A stretch of DNA of 48,247 nucleotides from Zoogloeaceae bacterium (GTDB lineage: Bacteria > Pseudomonadota > Gammaproteobacteria > Burkholderiales > Rhodocyclaceae): NCBI GenBank assembly GCA_031288305.1, contig JAITRP010000058.1, positions 1 to 48,247 of the forward strand, in the 5' to 3' direction. The notes below the pieces were generated by a model. The model made no database searches and was not told the DNA's origin. It saw only the letters and a program-made list of their open reading frames with translations. Every line of letters starts with the position of its first letter. Position 1 is the stretch's first letter. The position numbers and the translations under genes are program-made. This document shows, piece by piece, positions 24,800 to 26,636 of this stretch.

Positions 24800-25074
24800 C
24801 AGTGCCCTCCTCCGAGCATGGCGTCCGGCAGATTCAGCACCGGCGCCACCATTTTGAGCTGCGGTCCGCGCGCAATCTGTTCGATGCGCGCATGACTGGC
24901 CCAAGTCGCCAGTTCCAGTTGCAGCTGGCTGTATTCCACTTCCAATTGCCGTGCGCGCTCCTGCTCCGCTTCCAGCGCCTGATAGAGCTTGCGCGCCTTG
25001 TTCTGGGCGGTTACGGTTCCCAGGGCGGAAGCCAGTATCAACAAGAGCAGGACAAAGCAGTTAATGCGCGGCAT
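24799..25074 (-). CDS. ftsL: Cell division protein FtsL
   Basis: 91 aa, single TM plus coiled-coil, between rsmH and ftsI. Confidence 0.93.
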
Positions 25075-26020
25075 GAATTTCTCCTTGCCGCGTCCCCAGT
25101 TTTTCCCCCACCCGCATCACGGCGCTGCGCGCGCGCGGATTGGCCGCCACCTCCGCCGCCGAGGCTCTTCTTGCCCGTCCGATCAGACGCATGAACGGCT
25201 GCGGCGTCTCGTGCGCGCGCAAGGGCAGACTCCTGGGCAGATCATCCGGCGCGGCGGCAGAACGCAAGAAGCGCTTGACGATGCGATCCTCCAGTGAATG
25301 AAAGGCGATCACCACCAGCCGCCCCCCTGCCTTCAACAGCGCCAGCGCCTGCGGCAAGGCTAGCGCGAGCTGATCGAGTTCCTGATTGACATGAATCCGT
25401 AGAGCCTGAAAGCTGCGTGTCGCCGGATCTTGCCCCGGCTCGCGGGAGCGCACGGCCTCGCGTACAAGCGCGGCGAATTCCCCGGTGCTTGCAACAGGCC
25501 GTTTGGCCCTAAAAGCCACAATCTTCTTTGCAATCTGGAAAGCAAACCGTTCTTCGCCATAGTTTCTGATGACCTCCGTAATTTCCCTGATTTCAGCCCG
25601 CGCCAGCCATTCGGCCGCCGTTTCGCCGCGTGTGGCATCCATGCGCATGTCGAGTGGCGCGTCGTGCCGAAAACTGAACCCTCTGCGCCCGTCATCCAAC
25701 TGCGGGCCAGACACCCCCAAGTCGAACAAAATCCCGTCGAACACGGACAAACCCGCCTCCGACGCGCCTTGTTGCAATTCGGCAAAAGAACGATGCAACA
25801 ACGTAAATCGCACATCGTGAATGTCTTGCCCGGCGCGAATCGCTTCCGGATCGCGATCAAACGCCAGCAGCCGCCCGTCCTGCCCCAGGCGCGCCAGGAT
25901 TGCCCGGCTATGCCCGCCGCGTCCAAAGGTAGCGTCGAGATAAACCCCATCCGGCTGCATGTTCAGCGCCATGACCGCTTCTTCCCGCAAAACGGTGACG
26001 TGCGTCAGGACGCTGTTCAT
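25061..26020 (-). CDS. rsmH: 16S rRNA (cytosine(1402)-N(4))-methyltransferase
   Basis: [41 protein letters not shown] and [15 protein letters not shown] motifs. Confidence 0.98.
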
Positions 26021-26454
26021 TGCAACAAATCCTCAAGACCCGGCGGCATCAGGGATTTCACATCCACGCTCAAATCGTTTTGCCGCTCCCAGGCCGCTTC
26101 GTCCCAGAGTTCAAAACGCTTGCCCATGCCCGCCATGACGATCTTCTTTTCCAGACGCGCCAGCTTGCGCAGTTCCGGCGCAATCAGCAAGCGCCCCGCC
26201 GAATCCATCCGGTCATCGCGCGCATTGCCGTTCAGTATCCGCTTGAGCCGCTGCGCGTCCTGAATTGTCGAGCGCATCAGTTTTTCCTGCACCTGTTGCC
26301 AGACAGAGCGCGGATAAAGCAACAGGCAACCATCCGGATGCGCCGTGATGGTCAATTCTTCCTCACCCGTCCGCACAAGCGCTTCCCGGTGCAATGCCGG
26401 AATGGCAAAGCGTCCCTTGGCGTCCAGCGTGAGCGTAGCGGTTCCCTGAAACAT
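26017..26454 (-). CDS. mraZ: Transcriptional regulator MraZ
   Basis: [23 protein letters not shown] and [12 protein letters not shown] (AbrB-like repeats). Start refined to ATG at 26454 because the longer ORF (26511) would translate through the operator repeats. Confidence 0.96.
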
Positions 26455-26473
26455 GTCGATCGCAAAATCATGA

Positions 26474-26534
26474 AGTCCACTTTTGTGAACTTGTACTCCA
26501 CTTTTTAACACATTTCTCCACTTTAAGACACTTT
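26474..26534 (-). promoter_or_regulatory. MraZ-box operator array (10-bp period, AAAGTG(G/T)NNN)
   Basis: Minus strand: AAAGTGTCTT AAAGTGGAGA AATGTGTTAA AAAGTGGAGT ACAAGTTCAC AAAAGTGGAC, immediately upstream of mraZ. Confidence 0.7.
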
Positions 26535-26636
26535 AAAACCCAATGCAAGCACTTTTTACAAATTTTTGAATCAAGACAAGGACTTAGCAACACTCTTGCA
26601 TGTAGAATGAATTGTTATTTCTATTTAAAATCAATG

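Follow-up and report, generated by a model that had tools for sequence, protein, structure and literature searches.

In Burkholderia cenocepacia, MraZ binds in EMSA a fragment in which four repeats of 7 nt, separated by 3-nt spacers, overlap the dcw start (PMC7761207). The 289- and 161-bp promoter fragments of this species gave similar activities in LB, at 87.7 and 101.8 Miller units (PMC7761207). Escherichia coli MraZ represses from a repeat array, and in mycoplasmas MraZ is described as an activator (PMC7761207). The facts on the E. coli operator used below were taken from PMC7761207 and the K-12 sequence. Mollicute MraZ recognizes AAAGTG[T/G] repeats, according to Fisunov 2016 as cited in PMC8475190.

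Here, we describe a box array upstream of mraZ in the window, the whole stretch of 48,247 nucleotides that was analyzed. The array is considered to be the MraZ autoregulatory operator of the dcw operon, with a probability of roughly 0.92. It is ordinary in kind, belonging to a known autoregulatory type, with a few lineage-specific twists. This reading would extend the model of MraZ autoregulation to an uncultured lineage.

The mraZ Locus

The genes around the array are as follows.
26017..26454, minus strand: mraZ, 145 aa, with ATG at 26454 and stop codon at 26017-26019
25061..26020, minus strand: rsmH (mraW), second gene of the dcw operon, TIGR00006 at 345 bits
24799..25074, minus strand: ftsL, third gene of the dcw operon, ftsL_broad TIGR02209 at 62.4 bits
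26867-27079: rpsU, the divergent neighbor beyond the mraZ upstream region

In the profile search, the mraZ product matched TIGR00242 at 112.6 bits (cut-off 98.35), and its PF02381 match is likewise above the cut-off. Its solved MraZ homologues are 1n0e and 9qlr, and both MraZ half-motifs align with solved structures. The gene order mraZ, rsmH, and ftsL is the start of the dcw cluster, and the box array lies directly upstream of mraZ. The stretch ahead of the mraZ ATG (26455-26475) lacks a clear Shine-Dalgarno sequence; a G-rich one is often present in other members of the order.

Four Boxes in an Exact 10-bp Register

The minus strand from 26534 to 26474 reads AAAGTGTCTT AAAGTGGAGA AATGTGTTAA AAAGTGGAGT ACAAGTTCAC A AAAGTGGAC, exactly as quoted in the first-pass annotation. 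It contains four consecutive boxes.
26528..26534, minus strand: MraZ box, register -1, AAAGTGT, within the -35/-10 spacer
26518..26524, minus strand: MraZ box, register 0, AAAGTGG, the first five bases of which, with the T before them, make up the -10 hexamer TAAAGT
26508..26514, minus strand: MraZ box, register +1, AATGTGT, which holds the predicted transcription start
26498..26504, minus strand: MraZ box, register +2, AAAGTGG

The four boxes share an exact 10-bp register, and the best four-register score is 27/28. Membership in this type calls for three or more direct boxes of the AAAGTG(G/T) form at a 10-bp period, and the array has four. The first-pass annotation counted six registers with an exact 10-bp period. 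The period holds for the four consecutive registers and fails for the others. The claim is an overstatement because the fifth register, ACAAGTT, is not a box and the last one, AAAGTGG, starts 21 bp past the fourth. GTG is absent from register 5 both in the window, where it reads ACAAGTT, and in each of the five closest relatives. With this register empty throughout the close clade and box 6 at a distance of 21 bp, the six-box count was rejected. A further candidate box, AAAGTGC immediately upstream of the -35 (26549-26555), was also dropped, as only three of the six closest relatives retain it.

The region of the array is A+T rich (GC 0.41), as would be expected if the array were a functionless product of chance or a low-complexity A-rich repeat. 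Its score is, however, far beyond that of shuffled sequences: when the 412-bp intergenic region between mraZ and rpsU was shuffled 5000 times with its dinucleotides preserved, the maximum was 21, against 27 for the array. Elsewhere in the window, shifted readings of the same array apart, the four-register score is 18 or less. The genome assembly (2.72 Mb, 90.4% complete) was searched for a second array with the three-register AAAGTGK pattern at up to three mismatches, and the sole match was the array upstream of mraZ; the reversed control of the pattern gave zero matches in this genome. Chance is excluded by the array score and the uniqueness in the genome. It is already contradicted by conservation, as the period and the phase relative to the promoter are kept across the order (see below). 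The probability left for a meaningless repeat is negligible.

Overlap with a Conserved Promoter

The array overlaps the mraZ promoter and its predicted start site, with a conserved -35, 17 bp, and a -10 inside a box.
26543..26548, minus strand: predicted -35 hexamer TTGCAT; in relatives, mostly TTGACC and 17 bp from the -10
26520..26525, minus strand: predicted -10 hexamer TAAAGT, overlapping box register 0

A promoter scan by consensus missed the mraZ promoter of the window, because TTGCAT and TAAAGT are weak hexamers. The layout was examined in a first sample of 92 mraZ upstream regions, taken from the sampling of genus, family, and order plus three further loci. Close relatives of the genome are MAGs that bear the name Zoogloeaceae, and the order, with its more than 50 families, was on this basis read as Burkholderiales. 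A TTG-type -35, a spacer of 16-18 bp, and T followed by the first box were observed in 83/92 regions, and the spacer was 17 bp in 73. Among those 83 regions, the -10 hexamers made of box bases were TAAAGT (33), TATAGT (32), and TAGAGT (10).

In a larger sample, where the counts are descriptive as the genomes are not independent and the first box was demanded by the search, the promoter and box-0 layout was observed in 13/17 genus members, 43/43 from other genera of the family, 67/72 from other families of the order, and 19/29 from other orders of the class. The argument rests on the fixed distance of the -35 and the 10-bp comb of later boxes, neither of which was demanded by the search. Counted from the first box, GTG is present in the family at +10 in 42/43, at +20 in 39/43, and at +30 in 11/41. 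For the other families of the order, the corresponding counts are 51/67, 64/67, and 41/66; the -35 is TTGACC in 52/67, the spacer is 17 bp in 60/67, and the first box incorporates the -10, which is TATAGT or TAAAGT. The recurrent layout of the order is TTGACC, 17 bp, a -10 that is also the first box, and boxes at +10, +20, and often +30. The comparison of dcw leaders proposed in the first-pass annotation supports its view, as the 10-bp period is kept upstream of mraZ in genus, family, order, and class.

Some genomes deviate. A genus member (L031, genome G005) has a strongly diverged MraZ (37% identity) and lacks an AAAGTG array upstream of it; its MraZ protein and operator may have changed together. 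Two other genus members, both at least 91% complete (G009 and G012), gave no MraZ match; mraZ may have been lost or may be located on a missing contig. One genome of another order (G350) has two MraZ homologues.

Probable Repression by Occlusion

The assignment of the array to MraZ, made in the first-pass annotation, is supported by the identity of the downstream gene, by the conservation of the array, and by analogy with B. cenocepacia MraZ, which binds such repeats (PMC7761207). With one AAAGTG(G/T) box per helical turn, all four lie on the same face of the DNA and extend from the -35/-10 spacer across the -10 hexamer and the predicted start site into the early transcribed region. In the systems that have been tested, MraZ binds direct repeats of this type at its own promoter; by analogy it would do the same here, and a ring of MraZ bound over the -10 and the start would exclude RNA polymerase. 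For this organism, we infer the binding of MraZ, the stoichiometry of the ring, and the repression.

Repression by occlusion is the most likely mode of action, because the spacer, the -10, and the predicted start are all covered by boxes. The regulatory sign is deduced from the position over the -10, since MraZ of mycoplasmas is described as an activator (PMC7761207). A mycoplasma-like array, at which MraZ activates the operon, is improbable here: a ring bound over the -10 and the predicted start should keep RNA polymerase out, and in E. coli, where the boxes follow directly after the -10, MraZ acts as a repressor (PMC7761207; L132). In over 120 mraZ promoters of the order, bases of the first MraZ box also serve as the -10 hexamer. 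Such sharing would account for repression through direct occlusion and opens it to a base-by-base test.

A One-Register Shift in the Genus

In the genus, the array is slid one register upstream (L003-L020): a box is gained in the -35/-10 spacer and the +30 box is lost. GTG at register -1 is present in 13/13 genus members fitting the layout versus 5/110 elsewhere in the family and order, and in 16/16 genus members that could be aligned by hand. GTG at register +3 shows the opposite distribution, with 0/13 in the genus versus 52/107 elsewhere in the family and order; the Fisher values calculated for these contrasts take no account of relatedness. Over the 16 genus members, the register -1 GTG provides the sole invariant columns between the -35 and the -10. 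The MraZ of the window is only about 50-55% identical to those of other genus subclades, yet this GTG is invariant. It was also considered as an extended -10 (TGn), a reading that was rejected because it is located at about -18 to -16, not at -15/-14.

A Possible Box at +41 and a Putative Leader Hairpin

Two overlapping features are found further downstream.
26477..26483, minus strand: AAAGTGG at +41, a possible additional MraZ box that starts 21 bp past the fourth one
26473..26492, minus strand: 8-bp stem with AAAA loop (AAGTTCAC AAAA GTGGACTT) in the mraZ leader

The AAAGTGG at +41 is kept in 6/6 closest relatives and is absent in the rest of the genus. It may participate in the operator. 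Its bases also form the loop and 3' arm of the 8-bp hairpin, which was picked up as a stem in a separate scan of the region as well. The last box could belong to an RNA hairpin in the leader, with an effect on mraZ translation or on RNA stability, and not to the operator; we give this alternative slightly less than an even chance. It would fit the position of the last AAAGTGG off the 10-bp register. All eight pairs are kept in the six relatives (48/48 cells); five of them vary, each in a G-U-compatible way, and all stay paired, whereas slid controls pair 19 to 52 percent of cells. On the other hand, zero pairs are changed on both sides, and shuffles have no discriminating power, as every cell is paired. 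The whole leader folds no better than shuffles (z 0.40). The +41 offset with boxes is also seen in another family (L022 and L056), with no such hairpin by eye, and a box and a hairpin can both be real. An Rfam search of the mraZ leader gave no match. The hairpin in the mraZ leader RNA is suggestive from its pairing and is not proven, because no pair changes on both sides and the whole-leader fold does not exceed the shuffles.

A Conserved Element Upstream of the -35

Another conserved sequence is located further upstream.
26575..26586, minus strand: conserved upstream element TAAGTCCTTGTC, about 38-39 bp upstream of the -35

The element TAAGTNNTTGT, with an A-tract behind it, is observed in 16/17 upstream regions of the genus, 37/43 of the family, and 48/72 of other families. 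Across Burkholderiales, the usual distance from the element TAAGTCNTTGTC to the -35 downstream of it is 37-41 bp. A minority of the order, along with the few matches from other orders, has a distance of 49-52 bp, which adds about one turn of the helix. Such constant spacing, with a jump the size of a turn, suggests that TAAGTCNTTGTC is a putative activator site.

This genome contains the element once (up to three mismatches over 20 bases). Exact CTAAGTCNTTGTC has 10 matches in 60 genomes, six of which are at mraZ by coordinates. In its exact form, the element hardly occurs outside mraZ promoters. A regulon was considered and rejected, as the four non-mraZ matches to CTAAGTCNTTGTC are fewer than those of the reversed control. 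A second promoter on the TTGTCT of the element was rejected too, as no conserved -10 at 17 bp was seen by eye in relatives. A literature search with motif strings for the element returned only unrelated sequences.

It is conceivable, although the odds are somewhat against it, that the Burkholderiales dcw promoter is a composite switch. It would combine an MraZ operator fused to the -10, an array that can slide by whole registers as promoters evolve (the genus described here being an example), and a second, undescribed factor. This factor would bind TAAGTCNTTGTC, placed as for an activator at 39 bp upstream of the -35 or, with one more helical turn, at 50 bp, and would act almost exclusively on this promoter. 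If TAAGTCNTTGTC is functional, a second regulator of the division cluster is still to be found in betaproteobacteria.

Comparison with Known MraZ Operators

The E. coli Pmra (L132) has direct repeats with a GTGG core at a 10-bp period at the mraZ promoter, similar to the array described here. The first-pass annotation considered the array longer than the E. coli operator, which holds because there are four contiguous boxes here versus three in K-12 (TCAGTGG, ATTGTGG, and AAAGTGG). The E. coli boxes are all downstream of the -10 TAAACT, with none on the -10, and the -35 is TTGACA (K-12, L132).

The likeness to the mollicute motif, also proposed in the first-pass annotation, is seen in the same AAAGTG[T/G] box and in direct repeats upstream of mraZ (PMC8475190). 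M. genitalium is similar in having a single MraZ site in the genome. The mollicute site differs in its unrelated promoter context and in that it is described as activating in mycoplasmas.

Burkholderia cenocepacia PmraBc belongs to the same order and likewise carries its four repeats of 7 nt, with spacers of 3 nt, across the dcw start upstream of mraZ. In the published layout these repeats come after the predicted -10, whereas in the alignment made here the first box falls on the -10. The array in the window further differs from PmraBc by one box between the -35 and the -10 and by a possible extra box at +41.
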